From Rhodothermales bacterium (lineage in GTDB: Bacteria > Bacteroidota > Rhodothermia > Rhodothermales > VXPQ01): a DNA stretch of 64,000 nt. Below, piece after piece: positions 12,284 to 58,622 of this stretch; positions within the stretch are counted from its first letter, which is position 1; every line of letters begins with the position of its first letter. The notes below the pieces were generated by a model that made no database searches, was not told the DNA's origin, and worked only from the letters and a program-made list of their open reading frames with translations. Position numbers and translations under genes: made by a program. Location of the stretch: positions 1,720,731 to 1,784,730 of the forward strand of contig OX638293.1 in the NCBI GenBank assembly GCA_951812335.1. Direction: 5' to 3'.

Positions 12284-12472
12284 TAAGAACCATTACGGGG
12301 AACGGGGAGAAGACGCATAAGGACAGGGGGCGGTGTCATTAGACAAATTTTTCCAGTCGAGTCTTCGATGGCCCACGACTATTTTCGCCGGAAGAGCCGC
12401 AGAATCGCGCCCTGATGAAACAAGAGGGCACGTGAGGTGTCTAAAATAGTTTACTATAAGATTGCTCAATCG
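12284..12472 (+). other. Leader region of the FadR-type regulator gene
   Basis: This non-coding stretch lies between repeat copy A and the chosen regulator start. It includes an AT-rich segment near 12443-12470 that could be a promoter or, if the GTG at 12437 is used, coding sequence. No TGT-NNN-ACA dyad like those at 20467 and 31078 was seen here, so autoregulation is not supported by sequence. Confidence 0.4.
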
Positions 12473-13237: not shown

Positions 13238-13291
13238 CCGGCTTGGTCGTGTCCTTCATCCGAAGGTCGCGTATCCACGCGAGCAGCAAAT

Positions 13292-17922: not shown

Positions 17923-17940
17923 GCGTCTGAAGGGGGTTTG

Positions 17941-17987
17941 GGGCAGGAAACGAGGGGGAAGAGGAAACCATCCTCTCGCTTCCTGCC
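17941..17987 (-). terminator. Large intra-operon hairpin between lyase genes
   Basis: GGGCAGGAAACGAGGGG at 17941-17957 pairs with CCTCTCGCTTCCTGCCC at 17971-17987 (15 of 17 positions), leaving a 13-base loop. It lies between the stop of the tandem beta-helix gene and the TTG start of the PL6 gene on the same strand. No T-run follows in the transcribed direction, so it is more likely an RNA processing or stability element, or an attenuating structure, than a strong terminator. Confidence 0.5.
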
Positions 17988-17994
17988 CGTTGTC

Positions 17995-20361: not shown

Positions 20362-20545
20362 GGCGTTTTGTGCTGAGTGTTTTCGATAACGACGGGGATG
20401 CGCTCGTACCGGCGCCTGATATGCATATGCCCATGCGGACATATGAGACATATCATGATAATATGTATGTTGTATGACAAGTTGAAAGAGCAAACTAAAC
20501 CACAAGGGTTTTAATTACAAGACGCTATACGTTTTTATTACGCTT
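20362..20545. other. Promoter region of the beta-helix/PL6 operon
   Basis: This is 184 bases between the signal-peptide start at 20361 and the end of the next upstream gene at 20546. It is AT-rich around 20430-20515, holds the operator-like dyad at 20467-20483 and a perfect 10-bp palindrome TATCATGATA at about 20451-20460. A separate promoter for the 20361-13292 operon is therefore likely. Confidence 0.5.
20467..20483. promoter_or_regulatory. Candidate FadR-type operator, lyase operon
   Basis: ATGTTGTATGACAAGTT contains TTGT-ATG-ACAA, an exact match to the TnGTnnnACnA pattern known for the FadR subfamily. It lies ~106-122 bases upstream of the beta-helix start. It matches 14 of 17 positions with the reverse complement of the site at 31078-31094 before the SusC operon. 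Confidence 0.6.
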
Positions 20546-23125
20546 TTACTGCACGCGCACGACTTTTCGTACGACGATATGCTTTTCGGAATGGGTCAGT
20601 CGCACCAGGTATACGCCGGCCGGAACGTGCGCGCCATCCGAACCGCGACCGTCCCAATGCACTTGCTGCTTGCCCGGTGCACCGCTTCCTTCGGCAAGGG
20701 TAAGCACTTTCTGGCCCAGCAGATTGAACACGTCCATTCTGTATGTACCGGGTTTTTTTAGTTCTATGACGAACGATGTGGCGTCGCGGAACGGGTTAGG
20801 ATAGTTGTGTACCTCTAAACCGGGCGAAGCAGGCAGTTCGTTTTGCAATCCCAACACGTGCGTTCCGATCGTGAGCGAGATCCGGTCCTCGTTCCTGTCG
20901 AACGGGACAGTCGCCCCGCGCACCCTGACCTCGGTTACATTGGCGGCTTCCGGCCAGGAGACCTCCAGCCGAAACGCTTGCGTCGTTTGGCTCGGTTCGA
21001 TGACGAGCAAGCCCGGCGTCCCGATATCCAGCGCAAGCGTTGCAGGCTGTTCCGCCGTTAACGCTAATGCGCCGCTGCGGAACATGGTGGCGTCCCGGAA
21101 TGCAAAGTGCGAAAGATGGCCGTCGGTGGTGCGCAACCACGCAAAGGCGGCGTCTGTTGTAAAGGCGGCGAGCGTCTGTTCTGCCGGTTCATGCTGGAGC
21201 AGGAAAACATCGGCCGTGTTGTTTTTTTCGAGGGAGGCTGCAACGTATGCGTCCGTGCTCAGATCGATGGCCGCAGGTTCGGGCCCGTTCTGGGGGCCTG
21301 GTAACAAGAGTTGGAGGAATGCAGCGTTTTGTCCCGTTTGCGTGACCTCGACGTACTGTTCGAACCGTTCGTCCTTGAACAGGCTGATATATCCGGTGGT
21401 ATTGGTCACGGATGCGGTCGTTGGAAAGAAGAAGGCGTCCAGGCGGGCGTCTTCGCCGTATCGGTTGGCGAAGGGTTGCCATGAGGCATGATGCCCGCTG
21501 CGATCGAATCTGCCGCGTCCGTGCAGGTAGGAACGATACGTATGAGATTCATCGCCCGTCAGCAGATCCGCCACAACGAAATAGTCCTCTCCGACAAAAC
21601 CGACGATGCGAAAAAGATTGGCGTCGTTCGGACGGAGGTACCCGCTTTGTTTTTCTGCAAAGTCGAAAAAGGACGAATTGATATAGTGATGGGTGAGGGG
21701 AGTGACATTGTACACGTACGGCTGATAGAACAGACTGTCGGTAAACGGCGGAAACCCGTCCGCGGTGACGATATTGTGCGCCTTTGCGGTGGTGTACCAC
21801 GAACCGCGCCGGTTGTCCGAGAAACCGTTCGGGCCGTAGCCGGCGTCGGGGGCGAGGAGAGCGTCATTCCCGCCGAGAAAGAAGGAGAGTTGGTCGGGGT
21901 GATTATGGTTGTCTGCCTCGGCGACGCCGTGGAAGAGGAGATAGCGGTCGTTCGGGCTGCTTGTCCACTGGTTACGGAAAACGATCTGTCCGGTTTGGAG
22001 AAACTGCGTGGGCGAGACCGTAGGCGGGGCCGATGGAATACTGTCGTCAAAAAGGATGTATTCGTCGATTTCCCAGGTTACGTCTACGGTAGCCCCGGTG
22101 TAGTCCTCGTTGAAGATGTGGGTGTTTTCGTAATTCCACTGAGACAGGGCGGCGAAGTCGGCGTTGGGGTTAAGATCGGTTGGACTTCCATGGTACGCCG
22201 CCGCCACCATGTGCGTAGGCGCGGGCTTGATATAGGAATCTTCCATATTGGGAATCCATCCCCGCCCGGTGCGTATTTTGATGGGCCACTCGAACACCGG
22301 TTTGTAGTCCTCGAACAGGTTGACGCCGGAAACATTTTTGTAGTGCCACAGAAAGGGAATGAAATTCACGGCATTATACATCCAGTAGTGCCCTCCTTCC
22401 CGGTAGATGCCGTCGGCGCTGAACTGATAGCGGGTGACGGAGTTGGCGGCTTCGAGCGCGTACCGGAGCCAGTCTTCGGCGTGCGGGTGGTCGGTCAGGG
22501 CAAGCGCGGCGGTACCAATGGCCCAGGCGGGCTTGGAGCGATGGTTGTGCGGGCGCGGGGCCAGCCGGGCTCCTTCTGTCAGGTTGTCGCGCAGATACTG
22601 AACCTCTTCGGCAATGCGGCGGCGGATTTCGGTGTTTTGCTCCGCGTTCAGCCGGTCGAACACCCAGTCGTAGGCGGCGGCGTAGTTCTGCAACCAGGTT
22701 GCGCGGTAAATCTCGTCGTACGGTTTCTCTCCCGTCTGGGGAACGCCTTCGTAGGCCAACAGAAGCATCTCGATGGCCTTTTGAAGCGCCTGTTCGTCTT
22801 CTTCGATGAGCCACCAGAATGCAAGGGTTTTTGCGGCGCGCGGGCGGTCGTTCTCATCAAGGTCTCCGGCGTTTTTCGTAATGTACTTGAGCGCATCGGC
22901 CCTGAAGCGCACCCACAGCGTATAGTATCGGGACGAGGTTTCCGTTTTTCGCGCGCGGAGGACGGGAATGTCGCTCGCAGTGAAATACAGCGAAGGATGT
23001 ACTTCGCTTGCTGGAAGCACGGGGGTGGCGTCCACTGCGAAACCGTTGTACGTATCGTACTTCGGATGCTGCGCCCAAAGCAAGGCGGGGAAGAGGAAGG
23101 GCAAAAAGCATCCGAGGCGTTTCAT
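20546..23125 (-). CDS. Heparinase II/III-fold polysaccharide lyase with sorting domain
   Basis: This 859-residue exported protein has a signal peptide ending LLWAQ. An alpha/alpha-toroid region contains RATWLQNYAAAYDWVFDRL, NHRSKPAWAIGTAAL and YREGGHYWMYNAVNF. The heparinase II/III-like beta region contains ADNHNHPDQLSFFLGGN, DAGYG and TTAKAHNIVTADG, positions that in this fold supply the catalytic His/Tyr and metal ligands. It differs clearly from the PL17 gene at 5497 and may belong to PL39, PL15 or an unassigned family. The last ~85 residues are a FlgD-like T9SS sorting domain (HNYPNPFRDAT ... NLLGQKV ... VPAGVYLVRL). A repeat element lies 20 bases upstream of its ATG. Confidence 0.78.
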   Translation of the reverse strand: MKRLGCFLPFLFPALLWAQHPKYDTYNGFAVDATPVLPASEVHPSLYFTASDIPVLRARKTETSSRYYTLWVRFRADALKYITKNAGDLDENDRPRAAKTLAFWWLIEEDEQALQKAIEMLLLAYEGVPQTGEKPYDEIYRATWLQNYAAAYDWVFDRLNAEQNTEIRRRIAEEVQYLRDNLTEGARLAPRPHNHRSKPAWAIGTAALALTDHPHAEDWLRYALEAANSVTRYQFSADGIYREGGHYWMYNAVNFIPFLWHYKNVSGVNLFEDYKPVFEWPIKIRTGRGWIPNMEDSYIKPAPTHMVAAAYHGSPTDLNPNADFAALSQWNYENTHIFNEDYTGATVDVTWEIDEYILFDDSIPSAPPTVSPTQFLQTGQIVFRNQWTSSPNDRYLLFHGVAEADNHNHPDQLSFFLGGNDALLAPDAGYGPNGFSDNRRGSWYTTAKAHNIVTADGFPPFTDSLFYQPYVYNVTPLTHHYINSSFFDFAEKQSGYLRPNDANLFRIVGFVGEDYFVVADLLTGDESHTYRSYLHGRGRFDRSGHHASWQPFANRYGEDARLDAFFFPTTASVTNTTGYISLFKDERFEQYVEVTQTGQNAAFLQLLLPGPQNGPEPAAIDLSTDAYVAASLEKNNTADVFLLQHEPAEQTLAAFTTDAAFAWLRTTDGHLSHFAFRDATMFRSGALALTAEQPATLALDIGTPGLLVIEPSQTTQAFRLEVSWPEAANVTEVRVRGATVPFDRNEDRISLTIGTHVLGLQNELPASPGLEVHNYPNPFRDATSFVIELKKPGTYRMDVFNLLGQKVLTLAEGSGAPGKQQVHWDGRGSDGAHVPAGVYLVRLTHSEKHIVVRKVVRVQ

Positions 23126-23146
23126 GCAGGCGATGCGTCCGACGTA

Positions 23147-23418
23147 AGGATACTCTGATTAAGGATACTCTGATCAAAACCACTTCGTTCAGCGCTTCAC
23201 GTTCGCAACGCCCCGAATTCGCATAATTCCCGCTGATTCCGATGATAAAATCATGATATCCTGTAACTTGCGAACCTGAAGCGCCCTTCGGGAGGCAGAG
23301 AGGGGCACGCTGGCCGTGTCATTCCTCATTATGTGGGGCCTGCCACATTGCTTCGTCATTCCTTGCCAGCGCACCCCTTTCAGCCTCTGAATCTTTGCGG
23401 ATTTAATCAGGGTATCCT
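23147..23418 (-). mobile_element. MITE-like structured repeat, copy B
   Basis: This copy lies in reverse orientation relative to copy A. The element spans 272 bp because the left terminal repeat is tandemly duplicated with a 15-bp period (AAGGATACTCTGATT then AAGGATACTCTGATC); without this it is 257 bp. TA flanks occur at 23145-23146 and 23419-23420. Internal arms at about 23302-23325 and 23364-23386 pair and match copy A best. It fills most of the gap between the FadL-like gene end and the heparinase-like gene start. Confidence 0.8.
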
Positions 23419-23459
23419 TAAGTCCGCAATTTGCCGGCATCCCCCACGTACAGGCTTTT

Positions 23460-24911
23460 TCAAAACCGGTACGTTGCGCCGAAGAACAGGCTGTTCTTGC
23501 GAATGCGATTGTAGTCCACGTTGGATTCCCAGCGATCCTGATACAACAGACGTTGCACATCATACGTCAGGTCGAAGGTGACCGGGCCGATGGGCAACCC
23601 GAGGCCGGCGCTGAAAGCGTTTCCGCGCGCCGTTTGTCCCAGCAGGCCGAATCCTTCGATCAGGAAGGGCTGCGGATCCTGCCGGAATCCGGCCCGGATA
23701 AACCAGTGTTCCCGCAATTCCCACTCCAGGCCCAGCCGCACTCCCCGGATGGTTCCCCAATCGAGCCAGGCGTCCGCAAGACTTCCTGGATCCGTTAATG
23801 CTCCCTGACGAAATAGTCCATTTCCTGCAAGCGCCTGTACTTCAAGTTCTTCGTAATGGTGTATGAAATAATCCACCGTCAGCATGAGGTTTGCAGCTGG
23901 CCGGAACGCTGCTCCGGCAGTGAACCGGAACGGTAATGTGATTTCTTCCTCTTCCTCGACCGTGTGATTCGAGGAGCGCCCATCGAGGTCTACGTGGATT
24001 CCGTCATAACTAACGCTGCGTGTAAGCTGAATGGGCAGTTGGTACAGCACGCCGAGGCCCAGTACGTCCGTTTCCCAGTGTAAGCCCCCGGCCGCTGTCC
24101 AGCCGCTGTAATCCGAGGACCCGTTCCATCGGATGGAGCCGTCCAGCGTAGTGAACGAGTAATCGTGGGCATCCTCGCGGAGGAGGAATTGTCCCCGGCT
24201 GCTGTGGTGCTGGATATCGTCCGAACTACCTTTCCAGTAGGAAAAACGAAGCCCAAGATGAACACGCGGCAGGATTTGTAACGCCACAACAGGCGACAGA
24301 GCCCGGATCGCGCCTTCCCGTTGCCGTTCGAAAGACGACCAGACTACTTCTATCTCTTCGCCCGGATTAGGGCGGTCGACCGGGACCGGGCGAAATTGGC
24401 CAATGTAGGGATCGAGTACGTTGTCGTTCCTGTCGTAATCGCTCAGATCGGCAACGAGGCGCCAGGCTATACCAACAGTAACCGTGCGGTTGCCTATAGA
24501 GAACGGGAAAACGCCCCCTGCAAAGGCAGGGTAGAATGTGTCCTGGGCGTGAGACCAGTCGGGCACGGAAAGGGCGTCGGAGCGATACGTTTCGGGATCG
24601 GAAAAGTAAAGCGATATGCCGGCATAGTACCGATTGGGATTCCAGTGTTGCGTTTCCGCCCAATTACGGGACTGCCATGCCCCGGCGACAGAAAGGGCAG
24701 GACGCGATATACTGGTCAACCCTGCCGGATTCAGCAACATGGCTTCCGGGCTGCCGCCGCCGGAAGCCGCGAACGCCCCGCCCATGGCGCGCGCCCGTAC
24801 CGCCACAGGGTCCTGTTGCTGTATGCCTTGTATCGTGAGCGGCTGCATGACCCCCTGAGCCTGGACGGCCGGGATAAGCAGGAGATTCAGCAAAAGGAGC
24901 CGGATACGCAT
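23460..24911 (-). CDS. FadL/OmpP1-like outer-membrane beta-barrel protein
   Basis: This 483-residue protein has a signal peptide ending AVQAQ. The N-terminal DPVAVRARAMGGAFAASGGG-type segment followed by PEAMLLNPAGLTSI resembles the FadL/OmpP1 and PorV-like barrels, which share a 'MGGA ... NPAGL' start. The rest alternates polar and aromatic residues as expected for a transmembrane beta-barrel and ends with FFGATYRF, a C-terminal aromatic that suits BAM insertion. It is the last gene of a four-gene operon (10 bases after the previous stop). The role may be transport of hydrophobic or oligosaccharide ligands; specificity is unknown. Confidence 0.72.
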   Translation of the reverse strand: MRIRLLLLNLLLIPAVQAQGVMQPLTIQGIQQQDPVAVRARAMGGAFAASGGGSPEAMLLNPAGLTSISRPALSVAGAWQSRNWAETQHWNPNRYYAGISLYFSDPETYRSDALSVPDWSHAQDTFYPAFAGGVFPFSIGNRTVTVGIAWRLVADLSDYDRNDNVLDPYIGQFRPVPVDRPNPGEEIEVVWSSFERQREGAIRALSPVVALQILPRVHLGLRFSYWKGSSDDIQHHSSRGQFLLREDAHDYSFTTLDGSIRWNGSSDYSGWTAAGGLHWETDVLGLGVLYQLPIQLTRSVSYDGIHVDLDGRSSNHTVEEEEEITLPFRFTAGAAFRPAANLMLTVDYFIHHYEELEVQALAGNGLFRQGALTDPGSLADAWLDWGTIRGVRLGLEWELREHWFIRAGFRQDPQPFLIEGFGLLGQTARGNAFSAGLGLPIGPVTFDLTYDVQRLLYQDRWESNVDYNRIRKNSLFFGATYRF

Positions 24912-24920
24912 GACCCTGTA

Positions 24921-25922
24921 TTACTCGACGGAGAAAGAAAGGCCGAGGCGATGGACGCCTCCGAAAGCATCGCTCATGTCGCTGTAGGAATAATCAAGGC
25001 CTAACTCAAAGGATCCGATGGATTGTTGCAGTCCTCCTCCAAAACTTAGCGAGGCCGTGTCGAAATTGTGCTGGTAGCCCCCGCGGAGCATGAACCGCTC
25101 GAGAAACACATATTCAAGACCGGTCGCCCATTGCTGATCGTAGTCATTGGGCTGGATGAGGTCGAAGGTGGTGGTAAGACGACCAATTCCGGAACGGGCG
25201 AACAATCCGTTTGCGCCGATCATGTCCATGGCCGCGCCAATGCGGAACAGCAAAGGCGCAGGGTAATCCTCTTCTTCAAAAGAGACAGGCGATCCGAAGT
25301 TTATGACGGACGCCCCGACGCGCAGCGAGCGAAAGCCCGTTTCATAGTTCATTCCAAAGTCAAACAACAGCACCTGGCTTGAAGAGAGCCAGAGGTCTTC
25401 CCGCGCAAGTTTTGCGGTGAGGCCTGCCGAGAAGCGGTCGGTAAAGTTGCGGGCATACGTAAGACCGGATATCCAGCTTTTAGGGGAAAACGACTGCCCG
25501 GTAAGGCCGGGGTTATAGACCTGTGTTCCATTTCGATCCACGAAGCCGAGGTGATCCACCCGGGTTTCCTGGAAATCGCCCATGTCCGCGAAATAGAAGT
25601 GGAAGCCCAGGTGTCCGAATCGGCCCAGAGAACCGCCGTAAGCCACTGCGTAGTGGGCTGCATCGAGGAACCAGTCCACCCTGTCAAGGGAGAGGGTGTG
25701 CCCGGCTGCGCGAGCCAGGCCCGCCGGATTCCAGTAGAGCGCGTCCGCCCCGGCGCCCAAAGCCACATAGGCCGTACCGAGACCCGCCGCATGGGCGTTA
25801 GGGGCCACTTTCAAAAACTGCATGGAGGACGTACCTACCTTTTGGGCCCAGCCCGTCGTCGCCGGCAGCAAGAGCAGGAGCACGATGCTGCATCGAAAGA
25901 CTATTTTTGCGATGGCGCTCAT
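24921..25922 (-). CDS. PorV/PorQ-like outer-membrane protein
   Basis: This 333-residue protein has a signal peptide ending TTGWAQ. The start of the mature protein, KVGTSSMQFLKVAPNAHAAG followed by LGTAYVALGAGADALYWNPAGLA, is the hallmark of the PorV/PorQ (UPF0164-like) family linked to T9SS. The C-terminus (HRLGLSFSVE) is strand-like. In T9SS, PorV binds cargo C-terminal domains and shuttles them to attachment. Here it follows directly, with a 4-bp overlap, a gene whose product bears such a domain, so the pair may be cargo and shuttle. Homologues of this family next to TonB receptors are common in Rhodothermota-like genomes. Confidence 0.8.
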   Translation of the reverse strand: MSAIAKIVFRCSIVLLLLLPATTGWAQKVGTSSMQFLKVAPNAHAAGLGTAYVALGAGADALYWNPAGLARAAGHTLSLDRVDWFLDAAHYAVAYGGSLGRFGHLGFHFYFADMGDFQETRVDHLGFVDRNGTQVYNPGLTGQSFSPKSWISGLTYARNFTDRFSAGLTAKLAREDLWLSSSQVLLFDFGMNYETGFRSLRVGASVINFGSPVSFEEEDYPAPLLFRIGAAMDMIGANGLFARSGIGRLTTTFDLIQPNDYDQQWATGLEYVFLERFMLRGGYQHNFDTASLSFGGGLQQSIGSFELGLDYSYSDMSDAFGGVHRLGLSFSVE

Positions 25923-28204
25923 TTGATGACCACGAATTTGCCCCGGTATGTCTGTCCGTCCGATGCGTGTACGACGAAGAAATACACCCCGGAAGCGATC
26001 TCCTGATCGTTCCGAGTCACCTGAAACCAGGGGGTGGAATATTGCGCCGCATCATGTTCGATCGTTTGCACAAGCTGCCCGCTGTACGAATAGATCTCGA
26101 TGGTGGCTTGCTCTGGAAGTCCATAGAAGCCGATTTGCTGCCCTGGCGAGTTGTTTCCCGTTCCGCCGCCGGTAAAGCCGCTGTTCAGATAGAATGGGTT
26201 CGGCACCGCATGGACCTCGGTGAGTTCTACGGCAGGTCCGAGTCCGGCCGTGGATTGCGTGAGGTTTGTTCTTCCGCTGACGTTGCCTGCCGCATCCACC
26301 GATGTTACAGAATACCACTGCGATTCCCCGACAATCGTTTCGTCGTCTATGACCTCGTACATATCTCCATCCACGAGATACTGCGCACTGCCTACCGGCA
26401 CTTCGGCCAGAAGCGTCCACGGCCCGATAGCGGCACTCGATTTATATACATGGTACGTCGCCGGAGGACCCGTCAGGCGGGGATGCGTGAATTCCTCTTG
26501 CGCGCGTCCCCATCGAATCACCGAGTGCGCGAATTCGTTGTTGCTTATGACAGTGATGGGGGCGGGGGGCGGCGTGGGGATCTGGTACAGCCCGTCCGGA
26601 GCGTTGTCCTCGGGCCAGAGCGGAAGAACGGGAGGCTTGCCCGTATAGGCATTGTAGGCCATGTCCGCGACGTCCTTCACCGTTCGTACGTCGGAATTCA
26701 CATAGTCGGGATAGCCGTAGTCGCCGAGGTAATTTTGCGTAAGAACCTGTCCCGAGGCAGGATCTTTCACTACGTCGTTCCATCGCGGGACCAGATGCCA
26801 GGGCAGTTGCTCGTCGATCACCTCGCCCAGCCCGCCGCCTTCGTCCCAATCGTTGGGATCTTCCGTGGCGCCGTACCCGACCACTTCCGCGTAAGAGAAC
26901 TCGATTTTCTCTCCCTGTTCCAGGATGTAGGGACCGAAAACGATATGGTGACCGACCGCTTTATACGACTGGCGGAAATTGTATGCGCCCCGCCCGGTCC
27001 AGCGTAGTGAATCCGAGTCTTCCGTTCCGGGCGGAGGCGGAAAGACCGTTTCCCGGTATGGGGTGTAGGTGCCGCTCCAACGGGTATACGGCACCAGCTT
27101 GGGTATCATTTTGTCTTCCCGCGAATTCCCGCTCTCCACCTTGTTCATGAACGGTTGCTTGAGCGTACTGTCCGCGGTGATCATCCGATCGTTGGAAACA
27201 CGGGGATCGAGGGCGAACGTTTCGCCCCGTTTGGCGAGGTGGTTTCTGTCGTAGAACAACATCTGGATACCGGGAACCTGAGGCGACATCAGTCCTCCTC
27301 CTTGGTCGCCCGAACTGGCGAATGTCGAGAAATACTTCGGTTCCGGCTTGCCGCCATCGGAAAAATCGGTGTCCAGACCATTGCCGTTGTTGACGACATA
27401 GCGCAGCCAGCGATGGCGATCGAAATATCCGAACAGATCGTTTTTATACATGAAATCGTATTCCCACGTCCCGTACCATCGCTGGAAGCCTAACATCGAA
27501 GGGGCTACCCCGTAGTGAAAGCCGATAAGAACCTCATATAGCGTCTCGTCGGTATTCGCTACGCCGTCCCCGTCCGTGTCCCCCGTGTTTTCGAAAGTAT
27601 ATTCGAAAATGATCAGATCGTCGTAGTCCGGGTAGCTCCAGGCTCGCGTGGTGCGGGTCACGGTGATGCCGGTGTTTGTCGCCCATTGGGACACGATGAT
27701 CTCTTCCGCCTCATCCGGATCGTAGTTCGGGTTGAGCGTGCCGTCGTCGAGCAAGGGATAATTCTCGATCCGCTCGATGGAGATGGGAAACGAATAGACG
27801 CCTGCCACGGTGATCGGAATGTGTTGACCGGAAGACCCGCCAAACGAGTATAACCGCTCCGTAAGATCGAACGGATTGGCGTCTTTATAAGAGGCGGCGA
27901 TGGAAATACCCCCTCCTATGATGTTATGCTGTCCGCTGTACTGAAGTCCGTCGATGTTGGTGGCGGAGTTGCCGGGCCACTCCATCAGCGGTTCCAACGT
28001 GATATCGTGGTCGCGGTAGTGCCACCTTCGCCCGATTTCGCCGGTGTTATAGACGGTCTCATGCAGCATTCCGCGCTTGTGCACACGCGACTCACGGAGT
28101 TGTTGCCCCTCGACCGTGCCTGTACACAACAGGAACGGCAACGCAACAAGCGCGGTGGCGCGTACCGTCATGGCGGATATTTTTCTTCGTTCGATCTTTT
28201 TCAC
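25919..28204 (-). CDS. Large secreted protein with T9SS-type tail, partner of TonB receptor
   Basis: This 761-residue exported protein has no recognised enzymatic domain. A signal peptide ends near GTVEGQQ. The middle includes a Ca-binding-like TDGDGVANTDETL segment, a Fn3-like part (SRVIRWGRAQEEF-type region through TYHVYKSSAAIGPW) and a final FlgD-like sorting domain (AVPNPFYLNSG ... SYSGQLVQTI ... IASGVYFFVV). It starts with GTG at 28204, overlapping the TonB receptor stop by 4 bp; an ATG at 28171 is an alternative. The tight pairing suggests it works with the receptor, perhaps in place of SusD, though it shows no SusD features. Function unknown. Confidence 0.68.
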   Translation of the reverse strand: MKKIERRKISAMTVRATALVALPFLLCTGTVEGQQLRESRVHKRGMLHETVYNTGEIGRRWHYRDHDITLEPLMEWPGNSATNIDGLQYSGQHNIIGGGISIAASYKDANPFDLTERLYSFGGSSGQHIPITVAGVYSFPISIERIENYPLLDDGTLNPNYDPDEAEEIIVSQWATNTGITVTRTTRAWSYPDYDDLIIFEYTFENTGDTDGDGVANTDETLYEVLIGFHYGVAPSMLGFQRWYGTWEYDFMYKNDLFGYFDRHRWLRYVVNNGNGLDTDFSDGGKPEPKYFSTFASSGDQGGGLMSPQVPGIQMLFYDRNHLAKRGETFALDPRVSNDRMITADSTLKQPFMNKVESGNSREDKMIPKLVPYTRWSGTYTPYRETVFPPPPGTEDSDSLRWTGRGAYNFRQSYKAVGHHIVFGPYILEQGEKIEFSYAEVVGYGATEDPNDWDEGGGLGEVIDEQLPWHLVPRWNDVVKDPASGQVLTQNYLGDYGYPDYVNSDVRTVKDVADMAYNAYTGKPPVLPLWPEDNAPDGLYQIPTPPPAPITVISNNEFAHSVIRWGRAQEEFTHPRLTGPPATYHVYKSSAAIGPWTLLAEVPVGSAQYLVDGDMYEVIDDETIVGESQWYSVTSVDAAGNVSGRTNLTQSTAGLGPAVELTEVHAVPNPFYLNSGFTGGGTGNNSPGQQIGFYGLPEQATIEIYSYSGQLVQTIEHDAAQYSTPWFQVTRNDQEIASGVYFFVVHASDGQTYRGKFVVIK

Positions 28205-31032
28205 AGGTCCACGACCACCCCCAGGCGAATGGAACGGGGCGGGTTGCTGTAAATGCGGAAGGTCTGCAGGGCGGCAAGGTTGGGATTGTTGCTATCCGGC
28301 AGTGCGTATTCAATGTCGTCCCCGTCCTCGTACCGCCGTAGCGTCTCGGAGTCAAGAAAGACCCGATTGTAGTTATACACCCTTACGTTGAAGAGATTAA
28401 ACACCTCGGCGAAGACAGAAAGACGTGTTCCCTGTTGCGACACGCGGAGGGTCTTTGTGACCTTGAGATCGGTGTTGTGCTCTCCCGGGGTTCGTTCCGT
28501 ATTCAGCTTGGCGTAATTATCGCCGAGGAGTTCGCTGGGCGTGTAGGGGCGCCCGCTCCGGCTGTTATGGAGTATGTTGATTCGGATTCCCCCGAGCGGA
28601 TGTATTCTGCCGAAGCCTGGTCCCCATACATCGGGCGTGTTCAATCCGACGATGAGTATCAGGGCATGGCGGCGGTCGTAATTGAGTAAAATATCCCGCG
28701 TGGAAGGCGCTTGTGTCTGGTCGTTATTCTCGTCAATAATCGGGCTGCGCCCCGTTGGCGAGGAGTTTTTGCCCGTGGCGACGGAGAAGTGATAGCGTAC
28801 GGAACCCGACAGGAATCCTTGTCTTTTGTTCAATCGCAGGCTGAATCCCCGGACATCGGCGTAGTCCCGGTTTCCGGTGGTCTCGTACAGGTTATCGTTG
28901 GCGTCAATGTAAACGACCCGCTGAATAAGGTTCTTGACGTCTTTATAGTACCCGCTCAGGTCCAGCGTAAAACCCTTGGCCAGCCCGAATACGAGTCCCA
29001 CGTCGTAACTTTTTGTTTCCTCCGGTTCCAGACGGGGATTGCCCAACCGCCGGGGCTCAGCGGTTCCCAGATTTTCATTGAACAGGGTGGTGCGCTGGCC
29101 GATCAAATGCTGCAGGCCGGGCCGCTTGAGGTAGTTGCCGTAGTTCAGGTGAAAGACCGCCCGTTCATTGATTGGAAACGAAAAGCCCAATCTCGGTTGT
29201 AGCCGCGCGACCAGGGGGGTCTCTGCCTTTGCCGCCGATTCCTCGTTGATCAAAGCGGGGTTGTCCGCATCGCGAAACGGGGAGAACGTATCCTGATAGT
29301 ACTGTACGTTCTGATCGTAAAAGTCCAGGCGCAGCCCAAGGTTGGCGATCATCCCCTGGAATTCCATCTTGTCCTGCACGTATACCGCGCCTTCATAGGG
29401 TTTGGCGGCATAAAATTCGCGCACCGCACTGGAGCGGGAGGAATGGTTCAGGCGATTCTCTACGTTGATGTCGTACAGGTTGTTTTGTATGCCCGCCTTG
29501 ATCTGATGGTTGTTGGTGACCTGACTGGTGATGGATCCTGTCAGCGACCAGGTCCATGAGTTTTCATCGAAGAAGTCGTCGTCCATGACGCCGGTACGGA
29601 AACCGTCATCCCAGTACAGCCGCTCCCAGACGGCACGATCATAGATGTCGTCCCGAAAGCGATCCGGATCGATCACATCCACCCCTTCTTTCAGGCGGGT
29701 ATGCATTCCATTGAGGTTCACCTCATAGAATGTGCGGTCACTGACGATCTGAGAGAAATTCATTCCCAGACCTGCCGAACGATCGAGGACCTTATTCGCC
29801 CCTATCACCCGATCGTAGACCCACCTATAGAATCCTCCCGAGGAATAACTGAGTTCCTGCTGGTAGGCATTGCCATACAGCCCGTTGATCTTGAACTTGA
29901 TTCCCGGGGTCGGTTTGTACACGTAGTTGCCCATGACCTGATACTGCCGGTTCGGCTCCGGGGCGGGCAGCATGGGCCAGACACGGTGGATTTGCGTTGC
30001 AATGAACATCCTGCTTTTGCTCGAAAGCGGGCCGCCGGTAGTGAAATCCACAAGGGCGTCCCACTGGTTGTCATATTCGTACCCGATGTCGCGGTGCGTC
30101 TGCCGCCATAGATCGTAAGCCAGCTGTGCTCCCGCATCAGGGTCTACCCTGGATCCGAAACCACGTCCGACCGCACCCTGCCATCGGGGGCGATCGTCGT
30201 TCTCCGGGTCCGGGGTTTTCCACCACTCCAGATTGTTCAGTAGGCGGATATAGGGATTCGTCGCCGGGTCGTATACGCTGCCGCCAAAATGCTTGTAGTT
30301 GGGGACGCGAGTGCGAAATTCGCTGCGGCTTCTCCATACGGATCCGCCCTCCTTGGTAGAGATGTTGATGACGCCGCTCATGGCGTTGCCGTACTCGGCA
30401 GAAAACCCGCTTGTGATGACTTCGATCTCCTCGATCGCGCTCATCATGGGAGTGAAGGAGCGGGAAGAGTGAAGCGGGTTGACGATACCCATCCCGGCCA
30501 GCACATACAGTTCCTCGTTTGATCGTCCTCCTCGGAAGTGGCCGTCATTCACCTCGGCCTGTAGACCCAATACGTCCCCCAGATCTGTTACGCCTGCAAT
30601 TTGCTCCACATCTTCGGGTCGGACAATCTCCAGCGTTGCCGTCTGATCCATTTCCACGTCGGGACGCTCGGCGATGATTATCACCTCATCTCCCTCGATG
30701 GTGGTTGCCTCAAGCGCGAAATTCACGGTCGTCGTGCGGTTGATATTGACGACGACCCCTGTTTGCGTTACTGCCTGAAAGCCAATGAAGGACGTAACGA
30801 GATTATAGGTGCCTGGCTCGATATTGAGGATAAAGTAACGTCCATCTCCGTCGGTGGAGGCGCCGCGCGTGGTTCCGTCGATAACCACATTTACGTTGGG
30901 CATCGGCGCGCCCGTATCCGCTTCCGTAACGACGCCTGTAATTTTTCCGGTCTGAGCGGCAACCGGGAGGGCTACCGCAAGACCCAGAATACCGGCGAAC
31001 AGAAGTTTCCAGAGGCTATGAAGAGATGACAT
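28201..31032 (-). CDS. SusC/CirA-like TonB-dependent receptor with carboxypeptidase-regulatory domain
   Basis: This 943-residue outer-membrane receptor has a signal peptide ending PVAAQ. Residues ~30-115 form a carboxypeptidase-regulatory-like domain (GKITGVVTEADTGAPMPNVN ... ALEAT). A plug follows (EDVEQIAGVTDLGDVLGLQA ... SAIEEIEVITSGFSAEYGN ... GVINISTKEGG) and then a ~22-strand barrel. It is the first gene of a four-gene operon and lies beside alginate lyases, so oligoalginate uptake is a reasonable guess. However, no SusD follows, unlike classical Bacteroidota PULs. An operator-like dyad lies 46-62 bases upstream of its start. Confidence 0.88.
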   Translation of the reverse strand: MSSLHSLWKLLFAGILGLAVALPVAAQTGKITGVVTEADTGAPMPNVNVVIDGTTRGASTDGDGRYFILNIEPGTYNLVTSFIGFQAVTQTGVVVNINRTTTVNFALEATTIEGDEVIIIAERPDVEMDQTATLEIVRPEDVEQIAGVTDLGDVLGLQAEVNDGHFRGGRSNEELYVLAGMGIVNPLHSSRSFTPMMSAIEEIEVITSGFSAEYGNAMSGVINISTKEGGSVWRSRSEFRTRVPNYKHFGGSVYDPATNPYIRLLNNLEWWKTPDPENDDRPRWQGAVGRGFGSRVDPDAGAQLAYDLWRQTHRDIGYEYDNQWDALVDFTTGGPLSSKSRMFIATQIHRVWPMLPAPEPNRQYQVMGNYVYKPTPGIKFKINGLYGNAYQQELSYSSGGFYRWVYDRVIGANKVLDRSAGLGMNFSQIVSDRTFYEVNLNGMHTRLKEGVDVIDPDRFRDDIYDRAVWERLYWDDGFRTGVMDDDFFDENSWTWSLTGSITSQVTNNHQIKAGIQNNLYDINVENRLNHSSRSSAVREFYAAKPYEGAVYVQDKMEFQGMIANLGLRLDFYDQNVQYYQDTFSPFRDADNPALINEESAAKAETPLVARLQPRLGFSFPINERAVFHLNYGNYLKRPGLQHLIGQRTTLFNENLGTAEPRRLGNPRLEPEETKSYDVGLVFGLAKGFTLDLSGYYKDVKNLIQRVVYIDANDNLYETTGNRDYADVRGFSLRLNKRQGFLSGSVRYHFSVATGKNSSPTGRSPIIDENNDQTQAPSTRDILLNYDRRHALILIVGLNTPDVWGPGFGRIHPLGGIRINILHNSRSGRPYTPSELLGDNYAKLNTERTPGEHNTDLKVTKTLRVSQQGTRLSVFAEVFNLFNVRVYNYNRVFLDSETLRRYEDGDDIEYALPDSNNPNLAALQTFRIYSNPPRSIRLGVVVDL

Positions 31033-31234
31033 CGGGTTACGCCGGCGGTATGTGTTCTTAAGGCATCCCTGATTTATAACATGTCATACAAGTTAACGGT
31101 TCATAAAGGTATTGGCAAGAGTATTTTCCCGTTCTCCGTAAAATATTTTCCCGGCTTTTCCCGGTCATCCGCTATGGGCAGCGCGCTTGCTTATGGCGCA
31201 AGTCATCGGACTTTTGCTCATTCGCAGGATACCT
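31033..31234. other. Promoter region of the SusC operon
   Basis: This is about 200 non-coding bases upstream of the receptor and downstream of the kinase-like gene. It contains the operator candidate and the AT-rich segment ATAAATC just downstream of it on the transcribed strand. No terminator hairpin or RNA gene was seen. Confidence 0.45.
31078..31094. promoter_or_regulatory. Candidate FadR-type operator, SusC operon
   Basis: AACATGTCATACAAGTT is a 17-bp dyad with arms matching at 6 of 7 positions around a 3-base centre (TGT-CAT-ACA). It corresponds to the FadR-subfamily pattern and to the site at 20467-20483. It lies 46-62 bases before the receptor start, where it could overlap a promoter. 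Confidence 0.55.
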
Positions 31235-31843
31235 TTATCCCAACGCCGCCCACAACACCACCGTCATCGCAAACGGCACTCGGATATTATCGTTTACGGG
31301 CAGCTTCGGCGCTTCGACGATAGCGCCTGCAAGGGCAGCCAGCGCAGCTGTTCCTGCAGGGATATGTCCGAACGGCAAGAGGACGGCCCATGCTATGACT
31401 ACGAAGGCGATCGATCCTTCCAGCGTGCGATGCGTTCCCGGCCATGGCGTGCGTCCGTACCGTATTCCCGTGATGGCGGCGGCGGCGTCCGCAACCATGA
31501 AGGAAGCAAATCCCGGGACCACCACATCGACAGGGAAGAGGAGGGTAAGTAAGGTGGCGGAGACGACCACCCATGTGGCGCCGTTTATGACAACGTGTTC
31601 GCCTATAGCCGGTACTTCGGCGGGGCGCATCATATATCCGAAGAAACGGGCAATGAAGCGCGCAAACTTTTCCGACCTCGTGCGCAACGCATCGGCGCCT
31701 ATGGCGACAAGCGACAGGGGCAGCAGTACAAAAAGCGCAAGCGGCTTATCGAGAATATAAATACCCGCCGGGATGACCAGCGCCAGCAGATGAAGGCCTT
31801 TGCGCAGCGGTTCGTTGCGGGACAGGCGACGCAGGGGGGGCAT
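31235..31843 (-). CDS. Diacylglycerol/polyprenol kinase family membrane protein
   Basis: This protein of ~202 residues has several membrane segments and resembles the SEC59/VTE5-like CTP-dependent lipid-kinase family (dolichol, phytol and related kinases), which is related to phosphatidate cytidylyltransferases. Visible signatures are LRKGLHLLALVIPAG at the N-terminus, ASFMVADAAAAITGIRYGR in the middle and TLEGSIAFVVI after it. It probably phosphorylates an isoprenoid alcohol or diacylglycerol in the inner membrane. The ATG at 31843 gives the standard N-terminus; the frame opens further to 31891. It is divergent from hemE with ~140 bases between starts. Confidence 0.72.
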   Translation of the reverse strand: MPPLRRLSRNEPLRKGLHLLALVIPAGIYILDKPLALFVLLPLSLVAIGADALRTRSEKFARFIARFFGYMMRPAEVPAIGEHVVINGATWVVVSATLLTLLFPVDVVVPGFASFMVADAAAAITGIRYGRTPWPGTHRTLEGSIAFVVIAWAVLLPFGHIPAGTAALAALAGAIVEAPKLPVNDNIRVPFAMTVVLWAALG

Positions 31844-31986
31844 TGAGAACTGCGGACAGAAGTTGGGGTCTTCACTACCCGATGCGGGCACGTCAGCGAA
31901 CGGAGCCGATTTGAAAATGTTCGGAAATATATGTCGGAGCCGCTTGCATACGGAACATCCGGGGCCCGGACACTTTCTTTCGAACC

Positions 31987-36286: not shown

Positions 36287-37576
36287 ATGTTCAAGACCAG
36301 TGCGGCGTTATACGAAAGGGCGCGGAGCGTTATTCCGGGCGGCGTAAATTCTCCGGTCCGGGCTTTTGGGGCCGTCGGTGGGACTCCTGTCTTTTTGCGA
36401 AGCGCCTCGGGGGCCTGGGTCGAGGATGAGGACGGGCGCCGCTATATCGATTATGTGGGATCATGGGGCCCCATGCTTTTCGGTCACGCGGAGCCGGCGA
36501 TCGTGGAAGCCGTGGCGGAAGCAGCGAAATCTTCCACGTCTTTCGGCGCCCCCACTCGCCTCGAGGTCGAGATGGCCGAGATCGTTTCGGAGATCGTGCC
36601 TTCGATAGAGATGGTCCGCATGGTGAATTCCGGAACCGAGGCGACCATGAGTGCAGTGCGCCTTGCTCGCGGATTTACCGGGCGCGACAAGATTGTCAAG
36701 TTCGAGGGGAATTATCATGGCCATGCCGATTTCTTTCTTGCCGCAGCGGGCAGCGGCGCTACCACATTCGGGTATCCCGATTCGCCCGGGGCGCCGTTTT
36801 CGGCAATCCGGGATACGATGCTGGCAAAGTACAATGACCTGCAAAGCGTAGTCCGGCTTTCCGACGCACACGGGGACGACATTGCCTGTGTCGTCGTGGA
36901 GCCCGTAGCGGGAAACATGGGCTGTGTCCCGCCCGAGCCGGGTTTTCTCGAAGGGCTCCGGGATATATGTACGGACCGGGGCATACTGCTTGTTTTCGAT
37001 GAGGTGATGACCGGGTTCCGTGTGGCGCGGGGAGGCGCTCAGGAGCGCTATGGAGTGGTTCCCGATTTGACCACGCTCGGGAAAGTGCTGGGCGGTGGCT
37101 TACCTGCGGGTGCGTATGGCGGACGGCGCGACATTATGGAGCATCTTGTCCCATCCGGCCCCGTATACCAGGCGGGAACACTTTCCGGCAATCCTCTTGC
37201 TATGGCGGCGGGCCGGTCGGCATTGACGCGTATTCTGAACGACCCGACTCTCTATGACCGACTTGAAGCGTCGGGCCGTGCGCTGGAAGAGGGGACGCGA
37301 AAGAATCTCCATGATCTGGGTCTTGACTATTGCTGCACGCGAGTAGGCTCTATGGGGTCGCTTTTTTTTACCAGCCGTCGCGTGAAGGATTACAAAGGGG
37401 CCCGGTCCTGCGATACAAAGCGCTATGCGCGTTATTTTCACGCAATGCTGAGACGAGGAGTTTATCTTGCTCCTTCGCAGTTCGAAGCATTTTTCGTATC
37501 GACGGCGCACGGCGACGATGAAATCGAGCAAACGCTTGCGCTGCAACGTGAAGCGCTTGCAGAAATTCATGCATAG
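36287..37576 (+). CDS. hemL: Glutamate-1-semialdehyde 2,1-aminomutase
   Basis: This 429-residue PLP enzyme converts glutamate-1-semialdehyde to 5-aminolevulinate in the C5 route to haem. The N-terminal RSVIPGGVNSPVRAFGAVGG, the VRMVNSGTEATMSAVRLARG region and the PLP-lysine segment TTLGKVLGGGLPAGAYGG are diagnostic. The ATG at 36287 is chosen although the frame is open from 36152, because conserved sequence starts right after it. The stop codon TAG (37574-37576) is built from the TA flank and first base of repeat copy C. Confidence 0.95.
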   Translation: MFKTSAALYERARSVIPGGVNSPVRAFGAVGGTPVFLRSASGAWVEDEDGRRYIDYVGSWGPMLFGHAEPAIVEAVAEAAKSSTSFGAPTRLEVEMAEIVSEIVPSIEMVRMVNSGTEATMSAVRLARGFTGRDKIVKFEGNYHGHADFFLAAAGSGATTFGYPDSPGAPFSAIRDTMLAKYNDLQSVVRLSDAHGDDIACVVVEPVAGNMGCVPPEPGFLEGLRDICTDRGILLVFDEVMTGFRVARGGAQERYGVVPDLTTLGKVLGGGLPAGAYGGRRDIMEHLVPSGPVYQAGTLSGNPLAMAAGRSALTRILNDPTLYDRLEASGRALEEGTRKNLHDLGLDYCCTRVGSMGSLFFTSRRVKDYKGARSCDTKRYARYFHAMLRRGVYLAPSQFEAFFVSTAHGDDEIEQTLALQREALAEIHA

Positions 37577-37828
37577 GATACTCTGATTAAATCCGCAAAG
37601 TTTAGAGGCTGCGACAAGTGCGTTGGCAAGGAATGACGAAGCAGTGTGGCAGGCCCCACATAATGAAGAATGACGCGGCCAGCGTGCTTGTCGCAGCCTC
37701 CCGAAGGGCGCTCCGCGCCTGCGACATCCGAAACCTCAGTGTTTTTCGCAGATTTCAGCGAGGGAATCATGATGTCGTTTACGCGCGAAAGTAAAGTGCC
37801 GGGCGAAGCGGTTTTGATCGGAGTATCC
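37576..37828 (+). mobile_element. MITE-like structured repeat, copy C
   Basis: This 253-bp copy, in the same orientation as copy A, is flanked by TA at 37574-37575 and 37829-37830. The hairpin arms at about 37605-37627 and 37679-37702 read GAGGCTGCGACAAGTGCG and, as reverse complement, GAGGCTGCGACAAGCACG. They agree with each other but differ from the arms of copies A and E. The first base inside the TA is lost on both sides relative to other copies. It sits between hemL and nagB and supplies the hemL stop. Confidence 0.8.
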
Positions 37829-37850
37829 TAATAAATCATCCAGCGAGGCT

Positions 37851-47835: not shown

Positions 47836-47883
47836 CTATGTATGAGATACGCCGCCGCCGCACAATGCCATGCAGCGACTTTA

Positions 47884-48147
47884 AGGATACTCTGATTAAG
47901 TTCGCAAAGCCCAGACGCCGAGAGGGGTGCGCCGGCAAGGAATGACGAAGCAGTGCGGCAGGTCCCACATCATGAGGAATGAGGAATGACGCGGCCAGTG
48001 TGCTCCTCGCAGCCTCCCGAAGGGCGCGTCACGTCCGCGATGCATCGAATCCGCAGCGTTTTCCGCTGATTTCAAAGATGGAATCATGACGTTAATTTAC
48101 GCGCGCAAGTAAAATGCCGGGCGAAGTGGTCTTGATCAGAGTATCCT
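47884..48147 (+). mobile_element. MITE-like structured repeat, copy D
   Basis: This copy is in the same orientation as copy A. It is 264 bp long owing to a 7-bp internal tandem duplication (GAGGAATGAGGAATGACG); without it the length is 257. TA flanks occur at 47882-47883 and 48148-48149. The internal arms are less well matched than in the other copies (GACGCCGAGAGGGGTGCG against GAGGCTGCGAGGAGCACA), suggesting drift. It lies upstream of degP and downstream of fumC, i.e. between two same-strand genes. Confidence 0.78.
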
Positions 48148-48245
48148 TAACTCTTTGGCAGACAAAAACGTGCCAAATCCCAAATTATTGCGGGGAGGGC
48201 GCATCCAGGCATTCGTTTGGCTCATGTAGTGCATTCCGCGCATGG
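48148..48245. other. Short intergenic stretch next to repeat copy D
   Basis: These are ninety-eight bases between repeat D and the fumC stop. A 7-bp inverted repeat TTTGGCA/TGCCAAA with a 10-base loop (48154-48177) is the only structure seen. It is too weak and lacks a T-run on the fumC transcript, so termination is only possible. Confidence 0.35.
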
Positions 48246-49646: not shown

Positions 49647-49658
49647 GGGATTACAATA

Positions 49659-49914
49659 TGGATACTCTGATTAATTCTACTTCGATCAGCGCTTCATGTT
49701 CGTGCGCACAGGACATCATGACGATGTCGTTGAAATCAGCGGAAAACGCTGCGATTCGGTGCATGGCGTACATGAAGCGCCCTTTGGTAGGCTTCGAGAA
49801 GCGCGCTGGCTGTGTCATTCCTTCATTATGTGGGGCCTGCCACATTGCTTCGTCATTCCTTGCCAGCGCGCTTCTCGAAGCCTCTGAACTTTGCAGAATT
49901 AATCAGAGTATCCA
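49659..49914 (-). mobile_element. MITE-like structured repeat, copy E
   Basis: This 256-bp copy is in reverse orientation. The ends are complementary for 18 bp or more (ATATGGATACTCTGATTAAT on the left against its exact complement on the right), counting the TA flanks at 49657-49658 and 49915-49916. The internal hairpin is perfect over 22 bp: AGGCTTCGAGAAGCGCGC at about 49787-49808 and its complement at about 49863-49884. The outermost base pair is T-A, where other copies have A-T. It lies between fumC and panC, directly upstream of both. Confidence 0.85.
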
Positions 49915-49956
49915 TATGATGATGGCAGGAGTACGGAGCATTATACGCTGCACACC

Positions 49957-57075: not shown

Positions 57076-57117
57076 ACGGTGCGTGTCGATGCGCCCGCCA
57101 TGCGTACGGCGCAATCA

Positions 57118-57375
57118 TTATTTATCGAGATCGACATGCACGAACCGGCGTCCGGCACGACCGCGCGAGAAGCGCACGGTTCCGCTCGACTTGGCGAACA
57201 ATGTGTCGTCGCCGCCGTGACCGACATTGCGACCAGGGTGAAACCGGGTTCCGCGCTGACGCACGATAATGCCGCCAGACTGGATGGATTGGCCGGCGTA
57301 GACTTTCACCCCGAGCATTTTGGGGTTCGAATCGCGGCCATTTTTTGTGGAACCTACGCCTTTTTTATGCGCCAT
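57118..57375 (-). CDS. rpmA: Ribosomal protein bL27
   Basis: This 85-residue protein of the large subunit has a tail that reaches the peptidyl-transferase centre. [34 protein letters not shown] and [17 protein letters not shown] are almost invariant in the family. It follows rplU on the same strand after ~48 bases, the classic rplU-rpmA order. Confidence 0.96.
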
Positions 57376-57423
57376 GACGGCTTTTTCGATTTAGTGGTAA
57401 AAACGCTCTGTCAAAGTGAAATT

Positions 57424-58125
57424 TCAGGAAGCGGCTTCGTTTTCGGGATGGATGATTCCTCCGGCGGGCTTAGAGGCAGGCTTCTTTCTGGCGGTTTTCG
57501 CGGCGGCGGCGGCGGCTTCTTTTGCCTTGCCCGTCGTCTTCTTTACGGCGGCGGCTTCTTTTGCCTTGCCCGTCGTCTTCTTTACGGCGGCGGCTTCTTT
57601 TACCTCGCCTGTCGTCTTCTTTACGGCAGTACTGGCTTCTTTTGCCTCGCCTGCCGTCTTCTTTACGGCGGCGGCTTCTTCTTTTGCCTTGTCTGTCGTC
57701 TTCTTTACGGCGGCGGCTTCTTTTACCTCGCCTGTCGTCTTCTTTACGGCAGTACCGGCTTCTTTTACCTCGCCTGCCGTCTTCTTTACGACGGTTTTCT
57801 TTTCCTTTTCGCCGCCGGGCGACAGGCTCCCGATTTCAATGCGCGTATAGGGCTGGCGGTGCCCACGCTTTACCTTGAATCGCTTGCGTCTTTTCTTGCG
57901 AAAGACAACTATTTTGTCGCCCCTGACATGCTCCAGGATAGTCGCGTTGACCGAGGCGTCAGGTACCACCGGCGTTCCGATTCGTACCCCATCGCTCCCC
58001 GCTATCAGCAGTACGCGGTCGAATGTAACGGAGTCGTTCGAATTTCCTTCCAGATGTGGGACAATCAGCCGATCTTTTTCGCGAACCGAAAATTGCTTGC
58101 CGGCAATTTCTACGATGGCATACAT
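57424..58125 (-). CDS. rplU: Ribosomal protein bL21 with long Lys/Ala-rich repeat tail
   Basis: Residues 1-102 are a normal bL21 (MYAIVEIAGKQFSVREKD, KIVVFRKKRRKRFKVKRGHR, QPYTRIEI). Residues ~103-233 are an extra tail of seven VKKTxGx-type units (VKKTAGEVKEAG, VKKTTGEVKEAAA and similar), ending KKPASKPAGGIIHPENEAAS. Average bL21 is ~100-110 residues. The tail resembles histone H1/AlgP-type lysine-alanine repeats and other basic tails found on ribosomal proteins of Bacteroidota relatives. The start is ATG 58125, although the frame runs to 58287. The tail is encoded by a DNA tandem repeat (57510-57792). Its role is unknown: rRNA or nucleoid contact are options. Confidence 0.93.
   Translation of the reverse strand: MYAIVEIAGKQFSVREKDRLIVPHLEGNSNDSVTFDRVLLIAGSDGVRIGTPVVPDASVNATILEHVRGDKIVVFRKKRRKRFKVKRGHRQPYTRIEIGSLSPGGEKEKKTVVKKTAGEVKEAGTAVKKTTGEVKEAAAVKKTTDKAKEEAAAVKKTAGEAKEASTAVKKTTGEVKEAAAVKKTTGKAKEAAAVKKTTGKAKEAAAAAAKTARKKPASKPAGGIIHPENEAAS
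57510..57792 (-). repeat. Tandem repeat coding for the bL21 tail
   Basis: Seven imperfect units of ~39-45 bases each encode VKKT-type motifs. The underlying DNA is itself repetitive, including recurring CTTCTTTACGGCGGCGGCTT on the plus strand. Such arrays can gain or lose units by slippage, so tail length may vary among strains. A sequencing or assembly collapse here is also possible. Confidence 0.85.
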
Positions 58126-58184
58126 ATTCTTGTCTCTTCTTTTGGGCGCCGGATTGGGTACCGGCGCGAGAGTGTGTTTTTCTA

Positions 58185-58441
58185 AGGATACTCTGATTAA
58201 GTCCGCAAATCTCAGAGGCTTGCGAGGAGTGCGCCGGGAAGGAATGACGAAGCAGCGTGGCAGGCCCCACGTAATGAGGAATGACACAGCCAGCGTGCTC
58301 CTCGCAACCTCCCGAAGGGCGCGTCACGGTCGCCATGCCCAAAATTCGTAGTGTTTCCCGTTGATTTCAACGATGGCGTCATGATGTCCTGTATGCAAGA
58401 AAGTGACGCGCTGAGCGAAGCGGTTTTGGTCAGAGTATCCT
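58185..58441 (+). mobile_element. MITE-like structured repeat, copy F
   Basis: This 257-bp copy, in the same orientation as copy A, is flanked by TA at 58183-58184 and 58442-58443. Internal arms read GAGGCTTGCGAGGAGTGCG and, as reverse complement, GAGGTTGCGAGGAGCACG. A second inverted repeat, GCGCGTCAC/GTGACGCGC, links mid and right parts. It lies upstream of rplU and of the FAH-family gene, between divergent promoters. Confidence 0.8.
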
Positions 58442-58622
58442 TAAGACAACGGATTCATGCTTGCGGCGTTGAAGGTGCTTTCGGAGCCTGCCTTAGCGGG
58501 GCTTGTCTTCCACCTTCCAGGTGCCGCATTGAATGTGCAGCACAGTTTAACAAAGTAAAAAATGTCGTGTTCCGTATAGAATATCCTGATCCTGTGCAGA
58601 AAAGCCTCTTGGTAAGAATGTC
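58442..58622. other. Intergenic region before the FAH-family gene
   Basis: This is 181 bases with no gene. A GC-rich portion near 58470-58520 (AAGGTGC ... CACCTT) can form a long imperfect hairpin. It is followed by AT-rich sequence near 58547-58590, which may hold the promoter of the next gene. No further repeat copy is present. Confidence 0.4.

Follow-up and report, generated by a model that had tools for sequence, protein, structure and literature searches.

Positions 49789-49883 of the window (the whole stretch of 64,000 nucleotides analysed here) hold an inverted repeat whose two arms match each other within a copy and differ from copy to copy. The question that this locus raises is whether such paired change reflects a selected RNA or single-stranded DNA structure, the conversion of one arm by its partner, or nothing beyond the decay of an ordinary MITE. 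Covariation in palindromic repeats is, on its own, no proof of a selected RNA. The matter touches an old question: are the MITEs of bacteria parasites in decay, or do they supply raw material from which regulatory RNA is made? The family described below offers several hundred copies and a sister genome in which some of the sites are empty and others filled, and it lets mutation bias (arm copying) be separated from selection (a G.A module and near-frozen shared copies). The best explanation overall, to which we give a probability of about one half, is that the repeat is the hairpin of an IS5-type MITE, subject to arm copying and to selection for a fold of one strand, with a minority of copies kept in place.

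The element and its family

Of the two hairpins inside a 254-bp element, the inverted repeat, HP1, is the larger; the element is a single unit (49660-49913, minus strand; copy E of the preliminary description), recognized as a whole MITE copy by nhmmer and BLAST family membership and by terminal inverted repeats at both ends. The model strand of the family is the minus strand of the window. The left terminal repeat (49660-49688, plus strand, GGATACTCTGATTAATTCTACTTCGATCA) and the right one (49885-49913, minus strand) are imperfect and start with GGATACTCTGATTAA, and GGATACTCTGATYAA is present at both ends; the exact terminal 15-mer occurs 216 times in the genome of origin, against 0 for a reversed-pattern control. 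The arms of HP1, AGGCTTCGAGAAGCGCGCTGGC at 49789-49810 and GCCAGCGCGCTTCTCGAAGCCT at 49862-49883 (both on the plus strand), form a perfect inverted repeat of 22 bp, which is helix 3 of the covariation analysis. Within HP1 lie the two halves of a conserved inner module, read on the minus strand as GAAGGAATGAC (49814-49824; family consensus GAGGAATGAC; 99% conserved) and GGAATGACGAAGC (49847-49859; 98.8% conserved), between which tandem G.A pairs are possible, and a tip stem, ATGTGG/CCACAT, with its loop (49828-49845). The second hairpin, HP2 (49688-49780), is recognized by conservation, covariation and fold, and has a base stem, AGCGCTTCATGT / ACATGAAGCGC, and a variable distal part. Folded as RNA, the full element reaches -133.6 kcal/mol (z = -13.1 against dinucleotide shuffles), and the opposite strand gives an overall fold that is about equally good. 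No transposase is encoded in the element, the open reading frames all being too short for one; no promoter-like site was found near the copy at 49660-49913; and Rfam gave no match in the window and chance-level matches only for the element.

The element is almost certainly a MITE of IS5 type, and is filed as such because of its ends, its 4-bp target duplications, its empty sites and the IS5 remnants that have the same ends. An exact 4-bp target duplication flanks 43 of 114 copies (10.5% expected), TTAA being the commonest, and a 5-bp duplication flanks none of the 114. TTAA and CTAA fit the YTAR target that is duplicated by IS5 proper (PMC10359306); TAAA, TATA, CATG and ATAT are also found. 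At the copy 49660-49913 the duplication is ATAT (49656-49659 on the left and 49914-49917 on the right), and the sister species (G004) has a clean uninserted site with a single ATAT in TACAATATGATGATGG; this sequence comparison shows that copy to be a recent lineage-specific insertion, later than the split from the sister species. About 40 other sites are empty in G004, a few of those so classed lying in repeats. The same genome holds three degenerate transposase remnants, named IS5 by NCBIfam, that share the right end of the element; two of them (L218 and L220) have that end, and in the third (L219:1288-1953) both element ends surround degenerate transposase pieces.

The MITE family is new and non-autonomous, with no detectable partner transposase in the present genome (G000), in which no transposase of the DUF772 type was found. 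For present mobility a MITE needs a partner transposase in its own genome; its derivation from IS5 requires none. The one DDE_Tnp_1 gene of this genome (in the insertion sequence at 636,280) was considered as a partner and rejected, since the ends of that insertion sequence, TAGGGCGTGTTAACAC, are unrelated. This separate, transposase-bearing insertion sequence (G000:C1:636280-636654) is also present in G002 (L225), and a transposase related to its own was found in G001 (L223).

The genome of origin (2.69 Mb, one contig) gave 254 first-look candidates, and when the best 40 of 254 were scored, all 40 matched. The core is matched 113 times, against 2 for a control, and we estimate the copy number at roughly 100-200. 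Copies diverge from one another by about 18%, and distinct subfamilies are seen among them. The family was found in six of six genomes of the genus and in none of 15 genomes from other genera of the order (15 genera, one genome each). The named matches are Rhodothermales MAGs (for example, OX638295.1), and a 30-base pattern from the core matched nothing among viral contigs; that the host is sponge-associated or otherwise marine is our guess. All 70 copies placed in G000 are intergenic, several with the target duplication on a stop codon. One subfamily of 187-188 bp (L116, L177, L050, L179, L195 and L216), seemingly with the same shortening of HP2, occurs in G000 and G004, and the spacings of ends in G003 suggest its presence there too. 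Many MAG contigs of G001 and G002 begin about 120-140 bases ahead of a terminal repeat of the element, and the copy numbers for these two genomes are probably too low, since short-read assemblies seem to be interrupted by the repeat. A contig labelled Pseudomonadales (L098, JAPYNO010000087.1), hence binned in another order, has an element core at its end; possibly the contig is mis-binned or the element was transferred.

The window itself carries six copies: that at 49660-49913 and those at 12025-12287 (plus), 23158-23421 (minus), 37573-37833 (plus), 47881-48152 (plus; a family match) and 58182-58445 (plus). At three of the six insertions (12025, 37573 and 58182) the target duplication coincides with the stop codon that ends the gene upstream, and the stop is regenerated; at 12025 it is a TTAA overlapping the stop of a gene that ends at 12028, and at 58182 it overlaps the stop of a gene that ends at 58185. 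The latter predicted gene (57079-58185) contains six copies of a 39/42-bp repeat at 57492-57818. The site of 37573-37833, occupied by a full element in G000, is empty in G004, and in G003 the same site (L173:1501-1537) is a 37-bp stub of the terminal repeat only. The copy at 23158-23421 entered a TTAA belonging to the remnant of an older terminal repeat, as did the element at the corresponding G004 locus (L239:9923-10185); the flanks are 99.6% identical, but the G004 element is another copy and is oppositely oriented, with 81% identity once reverse-complemented. On these alignments the site is one of recurrent insertion, or of replacement. A block at about 13241-31950 (18-19 kb) shares 97-98% identity with G004, as against 88-94% for most of its surroundings, and looks like recent recombination between the species.

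Covariation of the arms and probable arm copying

The preliminary description held that the arms of HP1 match within a copy and differ between copies, and this is borne out: the GAAAGGGG, GCGACAAG, TCGAGAAG and GCGAGGAG types are all present and mostly matched, and the arms of the copy under study pair, as described, perfectly over 22 bp. The copies at 12025 and 23158 retain mismatches at stem positions, so matching is imperfect there. The loop, said to be nearly invariant, is 98.8-99% conserved as against 79-93% elsewhere.

Covariation was tested with 46 diverse copies drawn from the six genomes, and jointly the signal is above chance. In this set, standard pairs account for 94.7% of stem cells and 21 of 73 stem pairs have changed on both sides; double-changed cells number 88, against a shuffled mean of 29.4 (a level reached by 0 of 500 shuffles), and slid partners give no more than 21. 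Because relatedness inflates such counts, 92 non-overlapping closest pairs of copies were taken as independent comparisons. Among these there are 85 both-sided stem changes (40.4 for slid partners), and double changes from one Watson-Crick pair to another number 61 (6.3 for slid partners, maximum 10). Against a tree-simulated null no single pair reaches E<0.05, the best value (0.35) belonging to pair 75-90 in the tip stem of HP1, where the outer two pairs covary (helix 7). Structural pairs make up 8 of the best 14 column pairs, 0.04 being expected from their share of 95 in 33,411. The covariation extends over HP1, over the stem of the terminal repeats and over the HP2 base; distal HP2 takes no part. 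That the covariation of the arms is real can hardly be doubted.

Arm-to-arm conversion had been put forward as one cause of the matching, and this much of the proposal is supported, the process working besides probable selection. Transversions make up 16 of 61 compensated changes (26%) and 148 of 573 single changes in the 92 closest pairs; transversions should be under-represented if selection worked step by step by way of G.U, but not if an arm is copied, so that an equal share argues for arm copying. There is also a 181-bp copy in G004 (L094:4036-4216) with a perfect 36-bp palindrome whose arms are reverse complements, in which the arm extends 17 bp past the usual stem base and HP2 is replaced; this palindrome looks to have been made by copying one arm. 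The copy is nested in an older one, and it is because the counterpart in the genome of origin (L037) has no insertion that we take this form to have itself transposed. Template switching in quasipalindromes is an established process (PMC7202029, PMC3820800). Arm copying, then, quite probably contributes to the matching.

It could be argued that arm copying acts alone, with template switching perfecting the palindromes and the covariation arising as a mutational by-product, no structure being selected. The equal transversion shares, the copied and extended arm of L094 and the established template switching all fit such a scheme, as does the strand symmetry of rare changes described below. However, it leaves unexplained the non-Watson-Crick module of one strand, which is about 99% conserved, the G.T-rich common states of the stems and the conservation in place of loops and stems, and we regard it as unlikely, though deserving of serious attention. 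In the preferred explanation, which combines arm copying with selection, the arms would be kept matched jointly by templated copying during DNA synthesis and by selection among source copies for the fold.

A probable fold of one strand

Conservation is highest in the inner 'loop' (about 99%), the arms of HP1 standing at 90-91% and distal HP2 at 79%; the conservation of the module also holds in 49 copies from loci fetched by no pattern search. On the model strand, where GGAATGACGAAG faces AATGAGGAATGAC, an unbroken run of 12 steps is possible, all of them Watson-Crick or G.A and three tandem G.A among them, as against a run of 2 on the other strand, and 15 of 20,000 shuffles are as good. The segment GGAATGAC of the model strand would belong to a putative tandem-G.A helix, in which the G.A pairs would be sheared; nearest-neighbour energies do not favour it. 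The arms of HP1 are more stable on the model strand in 174 of 189 copies.

Changes within the stems bear on the same point. Amongst stem states present in at least 10 copies, G.T outnumbers A.C by 16 to 6 (p=0.05), whereas states present in one or two copies are symmetric (24 and 28, respectively). A raw G.T:A.C ratio of 266:149 was rejected as a sign of strong RNA selection, because it falls to 88:80 once founder G.T and variable columns are removed, the latter figures counting changes in pairs that are at least 90% Watson-Crick. Five founder pairs account for most of the G.T excess. Transitions at unpaired sites (147:139) show no strand bias. Because the common states are G.T-rich and the rare ones symmetric, the strand preference, if real, acted in source lineages and not in ordinary copies after insertion. 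The suggestion of a selected RNA or single-stranded DNA structure is therefore upheld in part, the 12-step run on one strand and the common G.T states speaking for it and the symmetry of rare stem changes against selection on ordinary copies in place; on balance, a one-strand fold is probably under selection at the level of the family. The feature kept would be a fold of the minus strand of the window in which a terminal-repeat stem closes on two hairpins. HP1 may form a double helix of about 22 bp, capped by the conserved tandem-G.A segment and a small stem-loop.

Shared copies, their possible use and related systems

Full copies occupy the same site in G000 and G004 in 13 cases, 2 of which lie within nearly identical DNA. 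The remaining 11 differ at 21 of 2871 positions (0.7%), with flanks that differ by 3.3-11.7%, and the background between the two genomes is 12.2% in intergenic DNA and 17.1% at third codon positions. Over the pairs compared at their edges, the boundary is sharp: divergence is 5.5% within the first 20 bp outside the elements, as high as further away, and several shared copies have mismatches within 10 bp on both sides. One copy (L051) is identical over 259 bp between the genomes, its closest paralogue being 85% identical, and the shared copies are unique in both genomes. Less conserved are L037, which is disrupted by nesting (4.3%), and two stubs of 32-36 bp (11-15%). A divergence of 5% for element positions in aligned blocks was put down to fragments and to a different copy at one shared site, the intact shared copies together giving 0.7%. 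Orthologous sites in more distant genomes provided one spanning full-length case, which was unusable. Unpaired stem positions are fewer in shared copies than in lineage-specific ones (3.2 and 5.1, respectively; p=0.0035). The few changes in shared copies are scattered over stems and loops alike, and the conservation in place need not concern the fold because it is not confined to stems. The shared copies lie mostly in short spacers, and we take the genes beside several of them, by eye, to resemble lexA, recF, pyrG, hisS, asnS and a sigma factor gene.

Purifying selection on the retained copies would be the simplest reading of these alignments, with exchange between the lineages as its rival. 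According to the latter, the shared copies are nearly identical because the two lineages recently exchanged elements, and not because of selection; stretches of 97-100% identity show that DNA does pass between the lineages, and the shared copies look young. The divergence already present in the 20 bp beside the elements, with mismatches close by on both sides in several cases, speaks against this, and the uniqueness of the copies in both genomes makes the independent insertion of one source unlikely, so that we consider exchange quite improbable. The earlier remark that the structure exceeds the needs of a decaying MITE is borne out by the shared copies (0.7% as against 12%), but the copy at 49660-49913 is not one of them, being a lineage-specific insertion. 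The near-frozen shared copies hint at use by the host, and it is rather likely that the retained copies function in place; that they do so via RNA can be suggested only tentatively. Where the neighbouring genes lie in tandem, the model strand is their antisense strand more often than their sense strand (25:14 in G000 and 13:8 in G004), which does not favour a role inside the mRNA of the neighbours. The more specific proposal of a MITE with a strand-specific structured RNA (three-way junction, 22-bp arm and tandem-G.A cap), adopted by the host at several loci beside housekeeping genes, is doubtful in that form; there, single copies would be held under strong purifying selection as the others turn over, and arm copying would let the sequence of the helix drift while the fold stays intact.

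Two further readings fare worse. An ordinary MITE, with a palindromic founder, subfamilies and neutral decay, would show covariation as a matter of subfamily membership, in keeping with the clear subfamilies, with the symmetry of recent changes and with the failure of any single pair to reach significance against the tree-simulated null; yet the closest pairs show both-sided changes at twice, and compensated changes at ten times, the level of the slid control, and the shared copies are not decaying, which makes this very unlikely. Least likely of all is a fold of the model strand as single-stranded DNA, and not as RNA, serving transposition (for instance, by being recognized while in the template of the lagging strand): the terminal repeats have the same one-strand preference, DNA energies too make HP1 more stable on the model strand and DNA also tolerates G.T and tandem G.A, but IS5-type transposases act on duplex ends, the copies are not biased in orientation with respect to replication (about 47 versus 53), derivatives without HP1 or with a short HP2 exist (most of those without HP1 looking like independent deletions) and conservation after insertion would go unexplained. 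In the reading that we prefer, with arm copying, one-strand selection and retention of a minority, most copies would drift neutrally, and a minority in short spacers by housekeeping genes would be kept by purifying selection. Most plausibly, retention would have followed where the structured stretch joined neighbouring transcripts as a processing or stability element, as with NEMIS and ERIC.

Amongst known systems, MITEs of the IS5 group have in common with the present element the terminal inverted repeats, a 4-bp target duplication (here in part of the YTAR type), the lack of a transposase gene, a high copy number, the intergenic location and ends shared with IS5-family transposase remnants. 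They differ in that the interior here is unrelated to the transposase remnants seen, and contains two covarying hairpins and a one-strand G.A module. The comparison with ERIC, NEMIS and CIR draws on their published descriptions (PMC2229807). The NEMIS or Correia elements of Neisseria are likewise MITEs present in more than 100 copies (PMC10969869), and the stem-loops in their transcripts have been proposed to be RNase III substrates (PMC2229807); the bacteria, ends and sequence are different, however, and the stem that stands out here is formed by the internal 22-bp hairpin and not by the terminal repeats. ERIC (IRU, RU-1) of enterobacteria is also a palindromic MITE of intergenic DNA; an RNA fold is predicted for it, and it has an orientation-dependent effect on neighbouring mRNA (PMC2229807); it is 127 bp long, with other ends and other hosts, whereas the present element has HP1, HP2 and the conserved inner module. 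The CIR repeats of Caulobacter and Brucella similarly have two inverted-repeat arms and not one hairpin (PMC2229807), but their arms are joined by a linker without pairing of the 5' and 3' ends, whereas here the terminal repeats would close a three-way junction. Finally, the template-switch mutation of quasipalindromes in E. coli and yeast resembles what is seen here in that one arm is copied onto the other, perfecting the palindrome (PMC7202029, PMC3820800); there it is a mutation process at a single site, and here it is inferred across a repeat family.
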